A stretch of 64,000 bases of DNA from Lentilactobacillus sunkii DSM 19904 (GTDB taxonomy: Bacteria; Bacillota; Bacilli; Lactobacillales; Lactobacillaceae). The DNA lies in the NCBI RefSeq assembly GCF_001435575.1, contig NZ_AZEA01000002.1, positions 62,001-126,000 on the forward strand, written 5' to 3'. Positions 20,475 through 29,257 of the stretch are shown here, in pieces; the stretch's first letter is position 1, and each line of letters starts with the position of its first letter. A program made the position numbers and the translations under genes. The notes beneath the pieces are model-generated. The model searched no databases. It saw nothing but the letters and a program-made list of their open reading frames with translations, and had not been told where the DNA came from.

Positions 20475-21638
20475 TTAGTTATTATCTGGACGGCCAAGGA
20501 CCAATACATAGCCGTTCCAGTGGTTGGCATCATCACTTTCGCCATCGTATCCTTTAATGTTATTCACAATCTGAATACCAAGCTTATAACCGGACAACGA
20601 AGCCCGCTTACTTGCGGTGTAGCCTTCTTTATCGAGCAACTGCTTGATTTCAGTTAACTTAGTGGCATTAGATGCAGTCTCATGGGCATACAGCCATTTT
20701 TGAATTGATGAGAATACTTTGATATCCGTGTAACCCGTTTTACTGATTGGATTCGGATCGCCATCTGACGTATTGTTAAAAGAATCATAATCATATGCGG
20801 CGATTCGTGATAAACCTAAATCAACGGGGCTGTTCGGAAATAGCTTAACAATCTCTCGTGCAAGTTTCTGCTTCTTACCATTTTGAATGTAGTTGCTGTA
20901 GTCTGCACTATCAGTAAACTGATCAATACTGGTGTATTCAATCTGCGAATAATTCATATTGTGTCCAGCTTCAACTTGAGAGGCAGCAACATAGCCGGAT
21001 ACGCTCTTACGAATTGGCGTGTTGCCATCCGGAAACATTGTGACAAAGTAATAGGTACTTTGCTTCTTGTTATGACGAAGAGTAACAGTTGCTTTTCGAC
21101 GCATATTGGAAGCTGGATAGTTCTTCAAATTAGCCCGTTTCTTGGTGTGACGCCAATTCCAAATATACACATTTTGCTTGGAATTCTTGGCGTGGAATGT
21201 CGCCATCTGGTTCCCCCACTTCTCTTTGATGATTTGGTAACCGTATGGGCTGACTCCCTTGATCAATGCGCTGGGACGAACCCATCCCTGGTGGCCGGCG
21301 GCTCGATCAGCAACATAGTAATAAATGGCTTTGGTGTTCTTATGAGTAACCCGAGCTTTCTTTTGAACGAACAGCGTGACCCCTTTTAACTTCGAAACTT
21401 TATAAAGTCGTTTTTGAAAGTCTCTTTGAGTATCGCTTGGATATCGTTTGCCCGACCAAATAGCGGCCTTTGATTTCAAATTAGCATGGTACGTATTTTC
21501 TGATGAATCTTTATAATAATTTTTCAAAACCTTAACCCGATAGCCGTTATGGGCAGCTTGGGCGGGTTGTGGATTGGCAATCATATCCAATCCGACAAAC
21601 GCCAGCATCACGCCAATCAGTTTAATCTTTTTTTTCAT
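20475..21638 (-). CDS. Secreted Lys/Tyr-rich surface protein (tandem paralogue A)
   Basis: This 387-residue protein has a signal peptide ending in AQAA at about residue 30. Residues 30-220 contain at least two SH3-like repeats (VYIWNWRHTKKRANLKNYP, YYYVADRAAGHQGWVR) of the kind common in lactobacillus surface proteins. The C-terminal part (LAREIVKLFPNSPVDLGLS, WLYAHETASNATK, GYTASKRASLSGYKLGIQIVNNI; segments quoted separately) is unlike any domain I can name. It shares the whole layout with the next gene, 28 nt upstream in the same direction. ATG 21638 follows GGGGG. The role is unknown. Confidence 0.75.
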   Translation of the reverse strand: MKKKIKLIGVMLAFVGLDMIANPQPAQAAHNGYRVKVLKNYYKDSSENTYHANLKSKAAIWSGKRYPSDTQRDFQKRLYKVSKLKGVTLFVQKKARVTHKNTKAIYYYVADRAAGHQGWVRPSALIKGVSPYGYQIIKEKWGNQMATFHAKNSKQNVYIWNWRHTKKRANLKNYPASNMRRKATVTLRHNKKQSTYYFVTMFPDGNTPIRKSVSGYVAASQVEAGHNMNYSQIEYTSIDQFTDSADYSNYIQNGKKQKLAREIVKLFPNSPVDLGLSRIAAYDYDSFNNTSDGDPNPISKTGYTDIKVFSSIQKWLYAHETASNATKLTEIKQLLDKEGYTASKRASLSGYKLGIQIVNNIKGYDGESDDANHWNGYVLVLGRPDNN

Positions 21639-21666
21639 CAAATACCCCCTGTTTCAATCTCACTAT

Positions 21667-22845
21667 CTAACTGTTATCAACTTTTCCCAAAATAAACGTG
21701 TAGCTAACTTTCCGCCCAAACATATCATGTTCTGGATAGTTGAAGGAAATATTATTGACGATTTGAATACCAAGCTTGTATCCGGATAGGGCGTCACGCT
21801 TGCTGGCAGTATATCCTTCCTTATTCAACAACTTCTTAATTCCGGCGATCTTGGTTGCGTTGGAAGCATTTCGGTTGGCATATAACCACTTTTGAATGGT
21901 TGGAAATGTTTTGATGTCAGAATATCCTTTTGTGCTGATTGGATCCCATTCTGCGTCAAAGCTCTCGTCAAAATGATCGTAATTATATACGGCAATTTTC
22001 GATAGTCCCAAATCCGGTTGAGAATTCGGGAATAGTTTAACAATCTCTCTAGCCAACTTTTGGTTTTTACCAGTTTGAATGTACTTGTTAAAGTCAGTGT
22101 TATTCACAAAATCCTTTATGGAAACAAAATTCATACCGGTATGATCGGGATTCAGCCCTGTGGCAATTGCCACTGCGGGAACATATCCGTGAATACTTTT
22201 ATCCGTCCCATGCGGAGAACCATCCAGATAAACGTATTTGGTATTCTTGCCATTGTGGCGCATCACAATATCGGCAGTCTTAACATAATTTGCTCCAGGA
22301 TAATGCTTTAGATTGGCCACTTTCTTAGTATGGGTGTAATTCCACATGTACACATTTTTGTTCTTATATGCATCCTTAACATGAAAGGACGTAAATTTCC
22401 CATACCATTTAATACTGGTAATCTGGTAACCATAAGGACTGAATCCGCGCTTTAACGCGTTGGTGCGGACATACCCTGAAAAGCTACCATAACGGTTGGC
22501 CACATAATAGTAAGTGGCACTCTTCGATTGATGATAAATTCGTACTCTTTTTTGAACAAACCAGGTTGTCGTCTTATACTTGGAAAGTTTAATTCCGTTC
22601 TTACGAAACTCAGATGATTTAATTGTTGTTGCGTTTTCGTTTTGTTTGCTGATCCACAAAGTTGCCTTGGACTTGGGATTTGCGTGAAAAGCAACGTCTG
22701 AACCCGAATTGCTTTTTTGAATGTAGGTTTTTAGTGTTTTGACGCGGTAGTTTCCACTGGCAGCTTGTGCCGGTTGCGGATTGGCAATAACGGCCAATCC
22801 GACAAGCGCCACCATCACGCCAATCAGTTTAAAAAGTTTTTTCAT
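21667..22845 (-). CDS. Secreted Lys/Tyr-rich surface protein (tandem paralogue B)
   Basis: This 392-residue paralogue of the preceding protein shares the signal peptide (GVMVALVGLAVIANPQPAQA), the SH3-like repeats (WFVQKRVRIYH, YYYVANRYGSFSGYVR) and the C-terminal domain with LAREIVKLFPNSQPDLGLS and GYTASKRDALSGYKLGIQI. The C-terminal halves are more alike than the repeat regions. It is first in a two-gene unit and probably arose by tandem duplication. It lies divergent to the Trp-transporter leader. The function is unknown. Confidence 0.75.
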   Translation of the reverse strand: MKKLFKLIGVMVALVGLAVIANPQPAQAASGNYRVKTLKTYIQKSNSGSDVAFHANPKSKATLWISKQNENATTIKSSEFRKNGIKLSKYKTTTWFVQKRVRIYHQSKSATYYYVANRYGSFSGYVRTNALKRGFSPYGYQITSIKWYGKFTSFHVKDAYKNKNVYMWNYTHTKKVANLKHYPGANYVKTADIVMRHNGKNTKYVYLDGSPHGTDKSIHGYVPAVAIATGLNPDHTGMNFVSIKDFVNNTDFNKYIQTGKNQKLAREIVKLFPNSQPDLGLSKIAVYNYDHFDESFDAEWDPISTKGYSDIKTFPTIQKWLYANRNASNATKIAGIKKLLNKEGYTASKRDALSGYKLGIQIVNNISFNYPEHDMFGRKVSYTFILGKVDNS

Positions 22846-22913
22846 CAAATGCCCCCTCTTTCAATATCAGATTACCATATTAAGGTTACGCCCGTGTTAA
22901 ATAACGCATTCAT

Positions 22914-22949
22914 TTTCGTCATATTAATTAACCTCACATGTTGACGAAA
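22914..22949. repeat. Inverted repeat overlapping the Trp-transporter -35
   Basis: TTTCGTCA (22914-22921) and TGACGAAA (22942-22949) form an exact 8-bp inverted repeat with a 20-nt spacer. The right arm overlaps the -35 TTGACG. It could be an operator in this divergent region. Confidence 0.4.
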
Positions 22950-22969
22950 GATAAGTAATCATTTAAAAT
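22941..22969 (+). promoter_or_regulatory. Promoter of the Trp-transporter operon
   Basis: TTGACG (22941-22946), a 17-nt spacer and TAAAAT (22964-22969) predict a transcript starting near 22976, directly before the leader ORF. Confidence 0.7.
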
Positions 22970-22975
22970 TATAGT

Positions 22976-23196
22976 ATTCTATCACGAAAGGAAAGATTGC
23001 TATGAGTTCACTTGTTAATCGCAGTTGGCAAAGCCGGTAACAAGTCACATCGATGCAGATGCGACTTGATCTTAAGCATGCGATCATGAACGCATCTGTA
23101 CCGGCAATCTTTCGGAAAACGAACGGTCTGTACAGATGATTCCGGCAGGCCGACTAATCACGAGTATTTCGGTCTGACCGGAATACTCGTTTTTTG
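22976..23196 (+). promoter_or_regulatory. Leader RNA with nested alternative hairpins and terminator (putative Trp attenuator)
   Basis: Five exclusive pairings are visible. ACTTGTTA (23010-23017) pairs with TAACAAGT (23038-23045). CAAGTC plus CATC (23041-23051) pairs with GATG plus GACTTG (23058-23068). CAGATGCG (23056-23063) pairs with CGCATCTG (23091-23098). CATCTGTAC (23093-23101) pairs with GTACAGATG (23130-23138). Finally the terminator 23160-23172/23178-23190 with a T run competes with ATTCCGG (23139-23145)/CCGGAAT (23178-23184) plus GGCCGA (23148-23153)/TCGGTC (23169-23174). Each step excludes its neighbour, so ribosome position on the leader ORF could decide termination. No T-box sequence was found. 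Confidence 0.75.
23002..23040 (+). CDS. 12-codon leader peptide with a single Trp codon
   Basis: The ORF encodes MSSLVNRSWQSR. AAGGA (22988-22992) is 9 nt before the ATG. The only Trp codon is codon 9 (23026-23028), four codons before the stop. The first and last parts of the ORF form the first hairpin of the leader, so a ribosome stalled at the Trp codon would break it. It lies before a transporter of the TrpX family. Whether stalling responds to Trp-tRNA or to free tryptophan, as in TnaC, cannot be told. Confidence 0.65.
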   Translation: MSSLVNRSWQSR

Positions 23197-23250: not shown

Positions 23251-24252
23251 ATGAAGAAAAAATATTTGATTTCAGGCGTTATCGTCATTCTTGTGGCAGT
23301 TTTGGGCTTTGCATTTTTCCAAAGCAGCCAGAAACAAAAGCCACAGGCCAAGCCAACCGTGGGAATTCTCCAATTGATGTCACATCCAGCTTTGGATGCC
23401 ATCCATAAGGGAATCATCCACGGTCTTGAAGAAGAGGGCTACAAACCGGGCAAGAATATCAAGATTGATTTCCAAAATGCCCAAAATGATCAGAGTAATT
23501 TGAAGACCATGAGCACTAAGTTTGCAAATGAAGATGCCGACCTTTCAATCGGAATTGCCACCCCATCTGCTCAGGCGTTGGCCAACACGATTACTAAAAA
23601 ACCAGTGATTCTGGGTGCCATTACTGATCCAAAAGGTGCCGGATTAGTTAAGAACAATAATAAGCCCGGCGGCAACATCACTGGTGTTTCCGATCAAGCG
23701 CCGCTTAAGGAACAGCTTAATTTAATTAAACAGTTCATGCCTAAAATGAAGACTTTAGGAATTATCTACACTTCCAGCGATGATTCTGCGGTTGCCCAAT
23801 ACAAGATGTTCGTTAAATTGTGCAAACAGGAAAACGTTCGTTTGAAGGCCTACTCCATTGCCAACACCAATGATTTGACCCAAGTTGCCGAACAAGCTGT
23901 TCGTTCAGTTGATGCTATCTATGTACCAACCGATAACACCATCGCCGGTGCCATGCAGACACTGGTTGGAGCAGCCAACAACGCCAAAGTTCCAGTCTTC
24001 CCTGCCGTTGATACCATGGTTAAGCAGGGCGGCGTTGCCACTTACGGCATCGACCAATATCAACTGGGTGTTGCAACCGGTAAGATGAGTGCCCAGATCT
24101 TGAAGGGTAAGAAGAAGCCATCATCAACGCCAATCAAGTTCTTCCGTCATGGAAAGTTAATCATCAACGAAAAGCAAGCTGACAAGTTGGGCATCAAAGT
24201 CCCTACTAACCTATTGAAAGAAGCTCGTCAAAAAGGAGAATTGATCAAATGA
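23251..24252 (+). CDS. trpX: TrpX-family ABC transporter substrate-binding protein
   Basis: This 333-residue binding protein of the ABC_sub_bind (PF04392) type has an N-terminal hydrophobic segment (about 5-24). No lipobox cysteine follows it, so it is probably held by an uncleaved anchor or released. The mature part starts VGILQLMSHPALDAIHKGI and contains TPSAQALAN and PTDNTIAGAM, as in the TrpX group predicted to bind tryptophan. I start it at ATG 23251 with GAGGGAG upstream; the in-frame extension back to 23194 lies in the terminator region. It overlaps the permease gene by 4 bases. Confidence 0.85.
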   Translation: MKKKYLISGVIVILVAVLGFAFFQSSQKQKPQAKPTVGILQLMSHPALDAIHKGIIHGLEEEGYKPGKNIKIDFQNAQNDQSNLKTMSTKFANEDADLSIGIATPSAQALANTITKKPVILGAITDPKGAGLVKNNNKPGGNITGVSDQAPLKEQLNLIKQFMPKMKTLGIIYTSSDDSAVAQYKMFVKLCKQENVRLKAYSIANTNDLTQVAEQAVRSVDAIYVPTDNTIAGAMQTLVGAANNAKVPVFPAVDTMVKQGGVATYGIDQYQLGVATGKMSAQILKGKKKPSSTPIKFFRHGKLIINEKQADKLGIKVPTNLLKEARQKGELIK

Positions 24253-25148
24253 GCATTATCGTATCAGCCATCGGCCAAGGATTAACCTGGGGAATCGTCG
24301 GTATCGGCCTGTTTCTCACCTTTAGAATCCTTGATTTCCCCGATATGACCGTTGAAGGAACCTTTCCAATGGGCGCAGCAGCCTGTGTCGCCGCTATTTA
24401 TTCAGGTGCATCCCCACTGGTTGCAACCCTGATCGCGTTTGTGGCCGGCATGTTGGCTGGCCTGGTCACTGGACTTCTGTACACCAAGGGAAGGATTCCG
24501 GTCCTGCTGGCTGGAATCCTGGTCATGACCGCTGCTTACTCAGTCAACTTAAGAATCATGGGACGGGCCAACCTTTCATTATTTGATAAACCGACAATGT
24601 TGAAAACCCACTTTCTGGAATCACTGCCGCCCTACTTTGACAGCGTCGTTCTGGGAATCATCGTGGTCGCCATCGTGACTGCGTTAATCATCTACTTCCT
24701 ACAGACCAACCTTGGGCAAGCCTTTATCGCCACTGGTGATAATCCCAACATGGCCCGTTCATTGGGGATTAGTACCGATGCCATGCAAATCATGGGCCTT
24801 GGAGTTTCCAATGGCCTGATCGGTTTGGGTGGGGCATTGGTTGCCCAAAATAACGGCTTTGCCGACGTCAACATGGGAATTGGGGTCATCGTTGTTGCCT
24901 TAGCCTCCATCATCATTGGTGAAGTGGTCTTTGGCGACTTAACCATGAATCAACGGCTGATCGCTGTTACGATTGGTAGTATCCTCTATCGATTCGTGAT
25001 CTTGTTAGTGCTCAAGTTAGGCTTCAATGCCAACGATTTGAACCTGATCTCAGCCATTGTCCTGGCACTGTTCATGATGTTCCCGGTGTTGGAGAAACGC
25101 TTCCGAATCCGCCACACTTTAGTAAAGGGGATGAGCAAGCATGACTGA
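24249..25148 (+). CDS. trpY: ABC transporter permease (TrpY type)
   Basis: This 299-residue protein has eight to nine predicted helices and belongs to the branched-chain-type permease fold. Typical are the N-terminal GLTWGIVGIGLFLTFRILDF with PDMTVEGTFPMGAA, and the loop ATGDNPNMARSLGIS that contacts the ATPase. It forms the membrane channel for the solute bound by TrpX. The ATG overlaps the previous stop (ATGA) and the next gene overlaps its end by 8 bases. Confidence 0.88.
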   Translation: MSIIVSAIGQGLTWGIVGIGLFLTFRILDFPDMTVEGTFPMGAAACVAAIYSGASPLVATLIAFVAGMLAGLVTGLLYTKGRIPVLLAGILVMTAAYSVNLRIMGRANLSLFDKPTMLKTHFLESLPPYFDSVVLGIIVVAIVTALIIYFLQTNLGQAFIATGDNPNMARSLGISTDAMQIMGLGVSNGLIGLGGALVAQNNGFADVNMGIGVIVVALASIIIGEVVFGDLTMNQRLIAVTIGSILYRFVILLVLKLGFNANDLNLISAIVLALFMMFPVLEKRFRIRHTLVKGMSKHD

Positions 25149-25914
25149 GCCAATCTTTGAATTAAAAGACATTGTTGTCACAGTTAACCAAGGAACGCCT
25201 GAGCAGATTAACATTATGGATCACGTTAATTTATCAGTCTTTCCCGGTGATTTCATCACAATTCTTGGGTCAAACGGCGCTGGTAAATCAACTTTGTTCA
25301 ACGTCATTGGCGGCAACATCCCCGTTACTGAAGGTCAAATCCTCTTAAACGGCCGCGATATTACCAACATGTCGGTTGAACGCCGAACCCGCTTCCTCAG
25401 CCGAGTCTTCCAAGATCCCAAGATGGGCACAGCACCTCGAATGACGGTGGCTGAAAACCTGCTGCTTTCCGAAAAACGGGGCCAGCACCGTGGCTTTGGT
25501 CCACGTCACCTAAAGACACATATGGATAAATTCCACGAGATCACTTCAACCATGAACAACGGTTTGGAGCATCGGTTGAATACCGCGACTGGTAAGCTTT
25601 CCGGTGGCCAGCGTCAGGCATTGAGTTTCTTAATGGCGACCATCAAGCGGCCGGATATTCTCCTGTTGGATGAACATACTGCCGCTCTTGATCCACAGAC
25701 GTCCCAAGAACTGATGACTGCCACCAACAATCAAATTACCCGTAATCACCTGACCTGCTTGATGATCACCCACCATTTGGATGACGCATTAAAGTATGGA
25801 AATCGGTTAGTCGTCTTAGATAACGGAAAGATTAGTTACGATATTTCTGGCGATGAAAAAGATAATCTCACCAAAGAAGAATTATTGAGTTTCTTCAATG
25901 ATATTGAAGAATAG
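25141..25914 (+). CDS. trpZ: ABC transporter ATPase (TrpZ type)
   Basis: This 257-residue ATPase has Walker A GSNGAGKST (about 43-51), LSGGQRQAL and a Walker B of the form LLLDEHTAALDP, which is usual in this ABC family, followed by the switch His in MITHHLDDAL. It powers the TrpXY transporter. It is the last gene of the operon. Confidence 0.88.
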   Translation: MTEPIFELKDIVVTVNQGTPEQINIMDHVNLSVFPGDFITILGSNGAGKSTLFNVIGGNIPVTEGQILLNGRDITNMSVERRTRFLSRVFQDPKMGTAPRMTVAENLLLSEKRGQHRGFGPRHLKTHMDKFHEITSTMNNGLEHRLNTATGKLSGGQRQALSFLMATIKRPDILLLDEHTAALDPQTSQELMTATNNQITRNHLTCLMITHHLDDALKYGNRLVVLDNGKISYDISGDEKDNLTKEELLSFFNDIEE

Positions 25915-26037: not shown

Positions 26038-26211
26038 TTTCAAATTCTATAGCTTCTTATTTATAATAAAGACGTGCGGGATGTCTATTTTGATTCCTAT
26101 TGTGATTATTTTATATATTTTCAACTTATGTAAATAATTCGATTTTTCTTCACAGAATCTTTATAGGTATTTTGTAAAATCTAATCAGTAAAAGAAAAGG
26201 AAGTGAGCATT

Positions 26212-27732
26212 ATGCAAAATCAACAATCAACTCCAAAGAAACGTAGATTTAAGATGCCTTCGGCGTACACGATCTTATTTCTGATTATTATATTTGTAGC
26301 AATTTTAACTTGGATCATCCCCGCTGGTCAGTACAGCACTGATAAGGCCGGCAATATCATCGCGCATACTTATAAGGCGGTTGCTTCTAATCCACAAGGA
26401 ATCTGGGACGTCTTCTCTGCCCCAATTTACGGAATGGTTGGAAACGACACGACTGAAGGTGCCATCTCCGTTTCTCTATTCATCTTAGTTATTGGTGGAT
26501 TCTTGGGAGTCGTCAACCAAACGAAGGCTCTTGATGATGGAATTGCCACTGTTGTCTCAAAATACAAAGGCAAGGAAAAAGTTTTGATTCCCCTGCTGAT
26601 GATTTTGTTTGCACTTGGTGGGTCTACTTATGGGATGGCCGAAGAAACCATTGCCTTTTACCCACTGTTAATTCCAGTGATGATCGGGGTCGGCTTCGAT
26701 TCGCTTGTGGCCGTCGCAATCGTGCTGGTTGGTTCTCAGGTTGGATGTTTAGCATCAACGGTTAACCCGTTTGCGACCGGTGTTGCTTCACAAACACTCC
26801 ACATTTCACCTGGTGACGGAATTATTTCCCGTGCCGTGTTATTTGTGATCGTGGTTGCCATCAGTATTCTGTTCGTTTACCGTTACGCAGCCAAGATTGA
26901 GAAGGATCCTTCGAAATCTTATGTATTTGAACAACGTGAGGAAGACCTCAAGCGGTTTGCCTTGAATCATGAAGACCAACCCGGCACTAAGATGACCGGC
27001 CGTCAAAAAGCCGTTCTCTACATGTTCGGGTTGACCTTCGTCATCATGATCATGGGATTAATTCCTTGGGATCAAATCAACAAGAACTGGACCTTCTTTA
27101 CCAGCTTCACTAAATCAGTTCAAAATGTCCCATTCCTGGGCAGTTTGATTGGTTCAAACCTGGTGCCGTTTGGTTCATGGTACTTCACCGAAATTACCAC
27201 CCTCTTCTTCTTAATGGCAATCATTGTCATGTTTGTCTTCCATATGAAGGAGTCGACATTTATTGAATCATTCTTAGCCGGAATGAGCGACTTCATGGGC
27301 GTTGCCATCGTTGTTGCCGTTGCTCGTGGGATTCAAGTTGTCATGAACGACGGGAACATTACCGCAACTGTTCTGCACTGGGGCGAAATGGGCTTGTCCA
27401 ACCTCGGTTCAGTTGTCTTCATTATTTTGGCCTATGTCTTCTATATCCCAATGTCCTTCCTGATTCCATCAACTTCCGGCCTTGCTGCCGCAACAATGGG
27501 AATCATCGGACCAATGGGTAAATTTGCCGGCGTTGACCCAAGCCTGGTTGTAACTGCATATCAAAGCGCATCCGGATGGGTTAACTTAATCACACCAACT
27601 TCAGGTGTTGTCATGGGAGCCTTAACAATTGCCCACGTTAACATCACCACTTGGTGGAAATTCATGTTCAAACTGATGGTTTACCTGTTCCTGGCTACCG
27701 CTATATTCTTAGGGGTAGTGGCGGTGATCTAG
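26212..27732 (+). CDS. YfcC family transporter (DcuC/C4-dicarboxylate carrier superfamily)
   Basis: This 506-residue protein has about 12 helices. It belongs to the YfcC group: after a basic start come AILTWIIPAGQYSTDKAGN, the re-entrant-type GGSTYGMAEETIAFYPLLIP and a later PTSGVVMGALTIAHV. Relatives include basic amino acid and dipeptide-linked carriers; the following PepV gene suggests peptide or amino acid uptake. ATG 26212 with AAGGAAG is preferred over the GTG at 26203, which is too close to the ribosome site. Confidence 0.82.
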   Translation: MQNQQSTPKKRRFKMPSAYTILFLIIIFVAILTWIIPAGQYSTDKAGNIIAHTYKAVASNPQGIWDVFSAPIYGMVGNDTTEGAISVSLFILVIGGFLGVVNQTKALDDGIATVVSKYKGKEKVLIPLLMILFALGGSTYGMAEETIAFYPLLIPVMIGVGFDSLVAVAIVLVGSQVGCLASTVNPFATGVASQTLHISPGDGIISRAVLFVIVVAISILFVYRYAAKIEKDPSKSYVFEQREEDLKRFALNHEDQPGTKMTGRQKAVLYMFGLTFVIMIMGLIPWDQINKNWTFFTSFTKSVQNVPFLGSLIGSNLVPFGSWYFTEITTLFFLMAIIVMFVFHMKESTFIESFLAGMSDFMGVAIVVAVARGIQVVMNDGNITATVLHWGEMGLSNLGSVVFIILAYVFYIPMSFLIPSTSGLAAATMGIIGPMGKFAGVDPSLVVTAYQSASGWVNLITPTSGVVMGALTIAHVNITTWWKFMFKLMVYLFLATAIFLGVVAVI

Positions 27733-27751
27733 AGTGTAACGAGCAACGGGT

Positions 27752-27829
27752 GAGGCGGTTTCTAAGGGTACTTTGATTGAAGCTCCTGGGTTTGGAGGTT
27801 TAATTAAAGTGCACTTAGAAGTTAGCCTC
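27752..27829. other. Long imperfect hairpin between yfcC and pepV
   Basis: GAGGC (27752-27756), TTCTAAG (27760-27766) and CTTT (27771-27774) pair with AAAG, CTTAGAA (27814-27820) and GCCTC (27825-27829). An inner CTCC/GGAG stem closes the top. No T run follows, so it is not a simple terminator. It may be a processing or regulatory element in the yfcC-pepV transcript. Confidence 0.5.
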
Positions 27830-27910
27830 AGTTGTGTCGGCACACGTTTCCGCAAGGTAAAATAAAACCTAAAAACCACAAATTCCACAACTTAGGAGGC
27901 ACCAACACAC

Positions 27911-29257
27911 ATGTCAAAAAAATTAGTCACTGAAAAAGAACAAAGCCAAGCCGTTGAAGGCTTAAAACGCTTAGTCAGCAAGCCTTCCGCTTATGATCAA
28001 GCAACGGTTTCCAAAACCACCCCATTTGGTCAAGGAATCGATGATGCTTTGACAGAAGTTTTGAAGATCGCTGAAGAAAATGGCTTCAAGACCTTTAAAG
28101 ATCCTGAAGGTCACTATGGTTACGCTGAAATCGGCTCTGGCGATAAAAACTTTGGTGTCATCGGTCACATGGACGTTGTGCCAGCCGGTGATCCAAACGA
28201 TTGGGATTCCGATCCGTTTACCGCAACCATCAAGGACGGTTACATCTACGGCCGGGGCACTCAAGATGATAAGGGACCATCAATGGCAGCGATGTTTGCC
28301 GTTAAAGCCCTCGTTGACCGTGGATATAAATTCAATTGCCGCATTCGATTCATCTTCGGAACCGATGAAGAAACCCTTTGGCGTGGGATTGCCGTATATA
28401 ATCAAAAGGAATCACCGATTGACTTCGGGATTGCTCCTGATGCGGAATTCCCATTGATTTATGCTGAAAAAGGCTTGGAACAATCCTATCTCGTCGGACC
28501 AGGAATGGATCACCTCTCAATTGATTTGAAGAATGCCTTTAACGCCGTTCCTGCCAAGGCCCCTTACAATGGGCCAAAGTTGGATGAGGTGAAAGCCGCT
28601 CTTGATAAGCATGGTTTCAAATATGACGATCATGGCAGTGACGGTATCACCGTTGTCGGCAAGGCTGTCCATGCCATGAACGCCCCTCAGGGAACCAACG
28701 CTGTTTTGCGATTGGCAATTGCCTTGGATGACGTTTTCCCTAACAAGGTACTCGACTTCTTCGGTAAGAAATTCAAGGAAGATGCCACGGCTACCAATTT
28801 GTTGGGTGATGTCGAAGACGAAGCATCCGGTCACTTGACCATGAACATTTCCAGTCTCAAGATTGATAAAAAAGAGACCAGAATGCAGGTCGATATGCGG
28901 ATTCCAGTTACCGTCGATCACGATGAATTGATTGAAAAGCTTAAGAAAGCTGCTGAACCATATGGACTACACTACGAGGCATTTGACTACGTTGCCCCAC
29001 TGTATGTCCCAACCGACAGCGATCTCGTTAAGACTTTAATGTCAACGTATAAGGACTTAACCGGTGATGATACTCAGCCGCAAATTTCCGGTGGTGCCAC
29101 ATTTGCTCGAACAATGCATAATTGTGTCGCTTATGGTGCCATGCTGCCGGGAACCCCTGATTTCATGCATCAAGTCAATGAAAATTGGGAACTTAAGAGT
29201 ATGTACAAAGCAATGGATATTTACGCCGAAGCCATTAAGCGGCTTTGTGTCGATTAA
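27911..29257 (+). CDS. pepV: PepV-type M20 dipeptidase
   Basis: This 448-residue cytosolic zinc enzyme cleaves dipeptides. Visible metal and catalytic motifs are GHMDVVPAGDP, YGRGTQDDKGP and GTDEETLWRG (general base Glu followed by the metal Glu), plus a C-terminal GGATFARTMHNCVAYG and HQVNE. The length is usual for lactobacillus PepV. Its partner may be the YfcC carrier upstream. TAGGAGG precedes the ATG. Confidence 0.9.
   Translation: MSKKLVTEKEQSQAVEGLKRLVSKPSAYDQATVSKTTPFGQGIDDALTEVLKIAEENGFKTFKDPEGHYGYAEIGSGDKNFGVIGHMDVVPAGDPNDWDSDPFTATIKDGYIYGRGTQDDKGPSMAAMFAVKALVDRGYKFNCRIRFIFGTDEETLWRGIAVYNQKESPIDFGIAPDAEFPLIYAEKGLEQSYLVGPGMDHLSIDLKNAFNAVPAKAPYNGPKLDEVKAALDKHGFKYDDHGSDGITVVGKAVHAMNAPQGTNAVLRLAIALDDVFPNKVLDFFGKKFKEDATATNLLGDVEDEASGHLTMNISSLKIDKKETRMQVDMRIPVTVDHDELIEKLKKAAEPYGLHYEAFDYVAPLYVPTDSDLVKTLMSTYKDLTGDDTQPQISGGATFARTMHNCVAYGAMLPGTPDFMHQVNENWELKSMYKAMDIYAEAIKRLCVD

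Follow-up and report, generated by a model that had tools for sequence, protein, structure and literature searches.

In attenuators of the Escherichia coli trpL type, the position of the ribosome chooses between a terminator and an antiterminator. Within the Firmicutes, leader-peptide attenuators have been reported or predicted for the his leaders of bacilli (PMC2965389), for Bacillus subtilis bmrCD (PMC4191407) and for Staphylococcus aureus ilv (PMC5794164). The trpXYZ operon of Streptococcus suis is under T-box control (PMC9382623), and Wels 2008 appears to include, for L. plantarum, an ABC transporter with a Trp T-box (an entry not tied to the present loci). A further family, the trpB ncRNA motif (Rfam RF04312; SRC-39-1, Narunsky et al. 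2024), comprises more than 900 representatives, most of them ahead of an uncharacterised ABC transporter and some ahead of trpB; it was presented as a strong candidate for an orphan riboswitch (PMC11109978). Its authors report no upstream ORF (uORF) and allow that the motif could be a classic attenuator (PMC11109978); in a search limited to the open-licence literature, the name ‘trpB motif’ was encountered in one paper only.

In the 64,000-nucleotide stretch of Lentilactobacillus sunkii DNA analysed here (hereafter the window), trpXYZ is preceded by a 12-codon ORF with Trp as its ninth codon, by a series of RNA helices that exclude one another, and by a terminator (Table 1). We consider that this leader is very probably a ribosome-mediated transcription attenuator, which senses charged tRNA-Trp at a single UGG codon and controls trpXYZ. 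An earlier reading of the window, made from its letters without database searches (the sequence-only reading), had proposed a ribosome-controlled Trp attenuator with read-through upon stalling at UGG, and as a model-based prediction this is supported. Its assignment of the downstream genes to the TrpX family was likewise borne out, as the window TrpX is an NCBIfam TrpX equivalog (493 bits against a cut-off of 390); the nearest solved structure is 3lft. Since trpB is present in the window's own genome, Trp auxotrophy is not obvious. On the minus strand, adjoining the leader, lie two tandem and similar ORFs (20475-21641 and 21667-22848), whose products of 388 and 393 aa have signal-peptide-like N-termini, the second of them without a Pfam match; further along the strand of trpXYZ come a DcuC-family (PF03606) carrier and, after it, a peptidase-like ORF (26203-29257). 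Searches of phage and plasmid collections returned no match.

Table 1. Positions of the promoter, leader elements and genes in the window (position 1 is its first nucleotide)
Feature	Position	Strand	Basis or remarks
Promoter, sigma-70-like	22941..22969	+	-35 TTGACG, 17 nt, -10 TAAAAT
Shine-Dalgarno region of leader ORF, AAAGGAAAG	22986..22994	+	sequence; AAAGGA
P1 5' arm, GAAAGATTG	22991..22999	+	overlaps Shine-Dalgarno region; pairs with 23105-23113
Leader ORF, MSSLVNRSWQSR and stop	23002..23040	+	ATG AGT TCA CTT GTT AAT CGC AGT TGG CAA AGC CGG TAA
Hairpin 1, ACTTGTTA/TAACAAGT	23010-23017/23038-23045	+	folding of window leader
Control Trp codon UGG	23026..23028	+	three codons before stop; invariant in leader alignments
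P1b 5' arm, GCCGG	23033..23037	+	final codons of ORF; pairs with 23101-23105; covariation
Hairpin A 5' arm	23041..23051	+	immediately 3' of stop codon; covariation, folding
Hairpin B 5' arm, CAGATGCG	23056..23063	+	covariation; hairpin B is the first hairpin of Rfam RF04312
Hairpin A 3' arm	23058..23068	+	overlaps hairpin B 5' arm; covariation, folding
Hairpin B 3' arm, CGCATCTG	23091..23098	+	shared in part with C; covariation
C 5' arm, CATCTGTAC	23093..23101	+	anti-D pairing; folding, duplex energy
P1b 3' arm, CCGGC	23101..23105	+	covariation
P1 3' arm, CAATCTTTC	23105..23113	+	anti-Shine-Dalgarno for leader ORF; covariation, duplex energy
Hairpin D 5' arm	23124..23130	+	folding; D itself a terminator in other genera
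C 3' arm, GTACAGATG	23130..23138	+	folding, duplex energy
Antiterminator AT 5' arm, ATTCCGGCAGGCCG	23139..23152	+	folding; complementary changes in relatives by eye
Hairpin D 3' arm	23146..23152	+	folding
Intrinsic terminator T	23160..23190	+	14 bp (23160-23173/23177-23190), then U-run
Antiterminator AT 3' arm, CGGTCTGACCGGAAT	23170..23184	+	folding
trpX, tryptophan ABC transporter substrate-binding protein	23251..24252	+	NF041285 above cut-off; PF04392
trpY permease	24249..25148	+	PF02653
trpZ ATPase	25141..25914	+	PF00005

The leader has the testable defining features of leader-peptide attenuators: a short ORF with start, Shine-Dalgarno sequence and stop (its translation being predicted), control codons that fit the amino acid of the regulated gene, and an exclusive terminator and antiterminator, whose tie to ribosome position is drawn from geometry and masked-ribosome folding. 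The ORF, as the earlier reading had it, is real and conserved: a strict search (Shine-Dalgarno sequence plus ATG-initiated ORF, with a Trp codon near its end) recovered it in 104/111 leaders as against 30/5550 shuffles. A Shine-Dalgarno-like motif of at least 4 nt is present in 109 of the 111 leaders tested, in-frame starts sit 7-17 codons ahead of the control codon across leaders (the length of the ORF being variable), and TTGAC and the -10 region are kept in the alignment of 23 Lentilactobacillus-type leaders. By DNA search, 22 of the 24 listed genomes of the window's genus (counting the window's own) contain the leader, as does one other genus; the remaining two genomes of the window's genus, G019 and G021, lack trpX as well. 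Among named contigs it was found in Lentilactobacillus, Levilactobacillus, Lapidilactobacillus and Secundilactobacillus, with trpX next to it wherever the downstream sequence was covered. Furthermore, an exact-pattern search of GTDB genomes gave 119 matches (many by chance, and filtered by context), and a covariance model built from the ORF, P1, P1b and B (R1) matched 206/398 Lactobacillaceae genomes, in 21/40 genera. Individual loci carry peculiarities of their own: in L. kisonensis (L007) and L. rapi (L008) a short repeat-like insertion (TGTAGGACAGCTAC...) separates leader and trpX, and in genome G106 (leader copy C1:26786-26913; L209/L260) an apparent group II intron (GUGCGCC start, reverse-transcriptase-like ORF downstream) directly follows the first terminator and stands where a trpX-like gene would be expected. 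Levilactobacillus (e.g. L036, L052, L081, L138) has a second TrpXYZ-like operon (TrpX ~40% identical) a few kb from the leader-controlled one.

The 225-nt leader folds at -78.7 kcal/mol as compared to -55.5 kcal/mol for dinucleotide shuffles (z = -5.4). The chain of mutually exclusive pairings noted beforehand exists in this folding, and A, B and P1b covary in the alignment of relatives. Among 50 diverse sequences, double changes affect 7/8 pairs of hairpin A and 11/14 pairs of P1b plus B, for which 91.6% and 95.4% of the cells, respectively, are paired (24-45% and 24-42% when the pairing is slid). P1, with double changes in 7/9 pairs, forms together with P1b a conserved long helix that was missing from the earlier scheme. 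The sequence of P1 is nearly all different between genera, with the pairing kept in most (weak in L200, L248, L259 and L274), and its duplex has a predicted energy of -10.6 kcal/mol with its own partner, -7.1 with cross-species partners and -7.5 when shuffled. P1b occurs as CCGG/CCGG, CCAG/CTGG, CCGA/TCGG and TCGG/CCGA (5'/3'); in one leader (L018) the Arg codon CGG has become CAG and its partner carries the compensating C-to-T change, which indicates that the pairing, rather than the residue, is kept. The C pairing beats cross-species pairing by a modest margin only. Hairpin 1, formed by the ends of the ORF and previously given a working role, was seen in just 10 of the 23 aligned Lentilactobacillus-type leaders and, judged by that alignment, is inessential. 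The terminator, earlier counted at 13 bp, is present as a terminator-like hairpin with its T-run and has 14 pairs; it is predicted to be slightly less stable (-19.5 kcal/mol) than the AT hairpin (-21.6 kcal/mol), and the overlap of their arms makes the two mutually exclusive. In Lentilactobacillus, D is without a U-run, leaving the second terminator only, whereas in most other genera D is an intrinsic terminator that is followed by a second one. AT-type complementarity (of the D loop or 3' arm with the second terminator) was seen by eye, and not formally counted, in several lineages.

From this architecture we infer the direction of the response, the ribosome positions and the kinetics. A relay of five segments would operate 3' of the short ORF. 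When Trp is scarce, the ribosome would stall with UGG in its A site and (placing its leading edge by the toeprint distance) would reach to ~23038, near the stop codon, so that segment a (the 5' arm of A) stays free; A (a:b) would then form and block B (b:c), c would pair with d (C), D would be blocked, AT would form and the polymerase would read into trpXYZ. When Trp is plentiful, a ribosome with the stop codon in its A site (leading edge ~23050) would cover a, upon which B and then D would form, AT would be prevented and the terminator would follow. Without translation, P1 and P1b would close around B and hide the Shine-Dalgarno sequence of the ORF, making termination the presumable default, and in most other genera D would serve as terminator and C as antiterminator. 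The ribosome-controlled switch of the earlier reading is thus retained, with the difference that the conserved chain would turn on whether A forms (UGG versus stop) and not on hairpin 1. In line with the scheme, folding under a masking ribosome with the RNA end at 23140 gave A 0.89 and C 0.95 for the stall, and A 0, B 0.98 and C 0.01 for the stop position. Beyond 23155, whichever mask is applied, equilibrium folding passes to D and ends in T, so that it is decisive only up to 23140 and the read-through branch would need kinetic trapping of A and C; this branch is kinetic in other attenuators too. In a survey of 49 leaders that had a usable terminator, the pairing of c shifted in the predicted direction by more than 0.1 in 18, in the reverse direction in 1 and negligibly in the rest.

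The sequence-only reading knew of no described leader of this form; the 3' half of the leader does correspond to RF04312, which was published without the uORF and as a riboswitch candidate (PMC11109978). The two hairpins of that family equal B and D, its commonest neighbour is an amino-acid ABC transporter (sometimes trpB), and its model begins at hairpin B, so that the ORF and the 5' arms of A, P1 and P1b lie outside it. The window scores 25.0 bits (E 0.23), below the gathering threshold of 59 bits, which is why Rfam misses this leader, and RF04312 was without a match in the window's genome at E <= 0.001. On the other hand, leaders found with R1 and RF04312 matches coincide in other genera: RF04312 exceeds its gathering score at L192 (a second-copy leader, 91 bits), L211 and L252 (many other leaders falling below the cut-off), and the ORF, A and B are common to the window and to the RF04312-matching leaders. 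As the two-hairpin architecture is found at the same genomic position, the window leader belongs, on this comparison of sequences, to the trpB RNAs of Rfam by architecture and position, and not by score. RF04312 matches 133/295 Lactobacillales genomes as against 2/398 drawn across the phylum, and an ORF with Trp stands upstream of all 39 matches read in Lactobacillales (L260-L298); outside Lactobacillaceae, most of these ORFs end in WQNWRR, WQSWRR or WQSWHR followed by the stop. A weak match in which no leader ORF was found (L316) was set aside. The members of a non-Lactobacillales family (f143) all fall below the Rfam cut-off, so that they are included on account of sharing the hairpins and the position of the ORF. 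Relative to the published motif, the new elements are the ORF and hairpin A, the helices that sequester the start region of the ORF, the relay, and control codons that can be exchanged.

The control codons were compared to the downstream genes in 138 leaders (sorted by a simple criterion applied to the 12 C-terminal residues, with close relatives counted and kinship ignored). Trp was found in 98/98 trpX leaders, in 7/7 trpB leaders and in all 4 leaders with an unassigned gene, Phe in 6/6 leaders of TrpY-like permeases, RLR (CGY CUG CGA) in 4/4 leaders of SBP3-permease transporters, His-His-His in a hisZ leader and Tyr in that of a BrnQ-type carrier; the leaders of NSS symporters comprise 4 with Leu (runs), 3 with Tyr and 4 with Phe(+Tyr), and those of SBP5 transporters 5 with Trp and 1 with RLR. 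Within a single genome (G108), the ORF ends in LNIR-WQ-SR before trpX and in LNIR-LR-SR (RLRSR) before an SBP3 transporter and an SBP5 protein. In genome G164 an argininosuccinate-synthase-like gene (argG) lies divergently to the SBP3 transporter, which makes Arg a likelier reading of RLR than Leu. SBP5 (OppA-type) peptide-binding proteins follow leader copies in G108 (C76:55977, L194) and at L243, L246, L247, L249 and L261, and their leaders suggest that peptide uptake is tied to single amino acids. We argue that RF04312 is, with good probability, a modular family of leader-peptide attenuators, in which one scaffold evolves its specificity through swaps of control codons (Trp, Phe, Tyr, Leu, His, Arg), so that a transporter as yet uncharacterised could be assigned its substrate from the codons, and members scoring below the threshold, the window among them, remain hidden from Rfam.

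The published proposal of a true riboswitch, in which the RNA would bind a small molecule, possibly an amino acid, and the ORF would be incidental, draws on the two well-conserved hairpins with a terminator and on the standing of the motif as a Rfam-curated cis-regulatory family and strong candidate. Nevertheless, the conserved positions lie mostly in the end of the ORF and in the alternative helices, nearly every locus read has, ahead of the motif, an SD-led ORF whose codons match, and the codons vary with the downstream gene, which a ligand pocket leaves unexplained; the tracking of the gene by the codons favours ribosome-mediated attenuation, and we regard the riboswitch as highly improbable. 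Somewhat less improbable, though still unlikely, is a nascent-peptide arrest in which free tryptophan (or another signal) would stall the ribosome at the stop of ...WQxR, mask A and terminate transcription (TnaC-like, with the opposite outcome and an unchanged sign of regulation). The W-Q-x-R conservation exceeds the needs of the codon alone: W-Q-x-R/Q-stop is kept beyond the Trp codon, most Lactobacillaceae leaders have one Trp codon only, and in many genera L-N-x-R precedes it. Against an arrest peptide, the Arg codon is accounted for by the P1b pairing and Q is replaced in WWRR leaders (for which reasons the residues Q/S/R were rejected as a conserved peptide signal), and the same scaffold carries HHH, LLLL, FFF, YY and RLR ends, unlike a specific arrest peptide.

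As trpXYZ has a T-box in Streptococcus suis, a T-box, or else a TRAP-type or other protein-controlled element, was also considered, and it scarcely merits belief: T-box matches at gathering score were absent from the window, from 20 leader loci and from 18 trpX-family loci whose genomes gave no R1 match (in agreement with the earlier reading, which found no T-box), neither stem I nor the T-box sequence was seen, and the conservation of the ORF would stay unexplained. The Rfam searches that this reading had called for thus left RF00230 and RF00513 without a match, and uncovered the kinship to RF04312; the E. coli-type Trp leader (RF00513) gave no gathering-score match in the window, in the leader region even E values up to 10 brought none, and no known Rfam leader reached threshold in the window. 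A THF riboswitch (RF01831) was observed in the sequence flanking a TrpX-like gene (L227) on its upstream side, in a genome without an R1 match.

Codon-reading attenuation thus being the most likely explanation, the sequences suggest that the same switch is present throughout the lactic acid bacteria and in some other Firmicutes, with its key codon matching the next gene. If this is true, one of the strongest published riboswitch candidates would leave the orphan list and gain a testable mechanism, and Trp uptake in lactic acid bacteria would be governed by a widespread leader-peptide attenuator, in place of the T-box that serves Streptococcus suis. Moreover, the last codons of the leader ORF would constitute a code predicting the cargo of the downstream transporter (TrpY-like permeases would carry Phe, the various NSS symporters Leu, Tyr or Phe, and the SBP3 transporters of one lactobacillus genus Arg, for instance), and natural paralogue pairs differing chiefly at the control codons would represent ready-made experiments.

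The E. coli trp leader (trpL; RF00513) likewise has a short ORF with its control codon(s) a few codons before the stop; no sequence relation to it was found, and the window leader has one extra segment in its chain, as a consequence of which the stalled ribosome would leave, rather than block, the first hairpin. It further differs from trpL in that a segment further along the chain base-pairs with the ribosome-binding site of the ORF itself. The Trp T-box of S. suis trpXYZ (PMC9382623) serves the same operon and the same presumed signal (the charging of tRNA-Trp); there the tRNA binds the RNA directly, whereas in the window, devoid of a T-box, the ribosome is proposed to read the codon. The gene context of the hisZ leader (L300) is the same as that of the earlier his leader prediction in bacilli (PMC2965389). 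The his, bmrCD and ilv attenuators of Firmicutes are alike in employing ribosome-mediated transcription attenuation, but do not form one family, whereas in the family of the window a single RNA scaffold is common to several amino-acid specificities.
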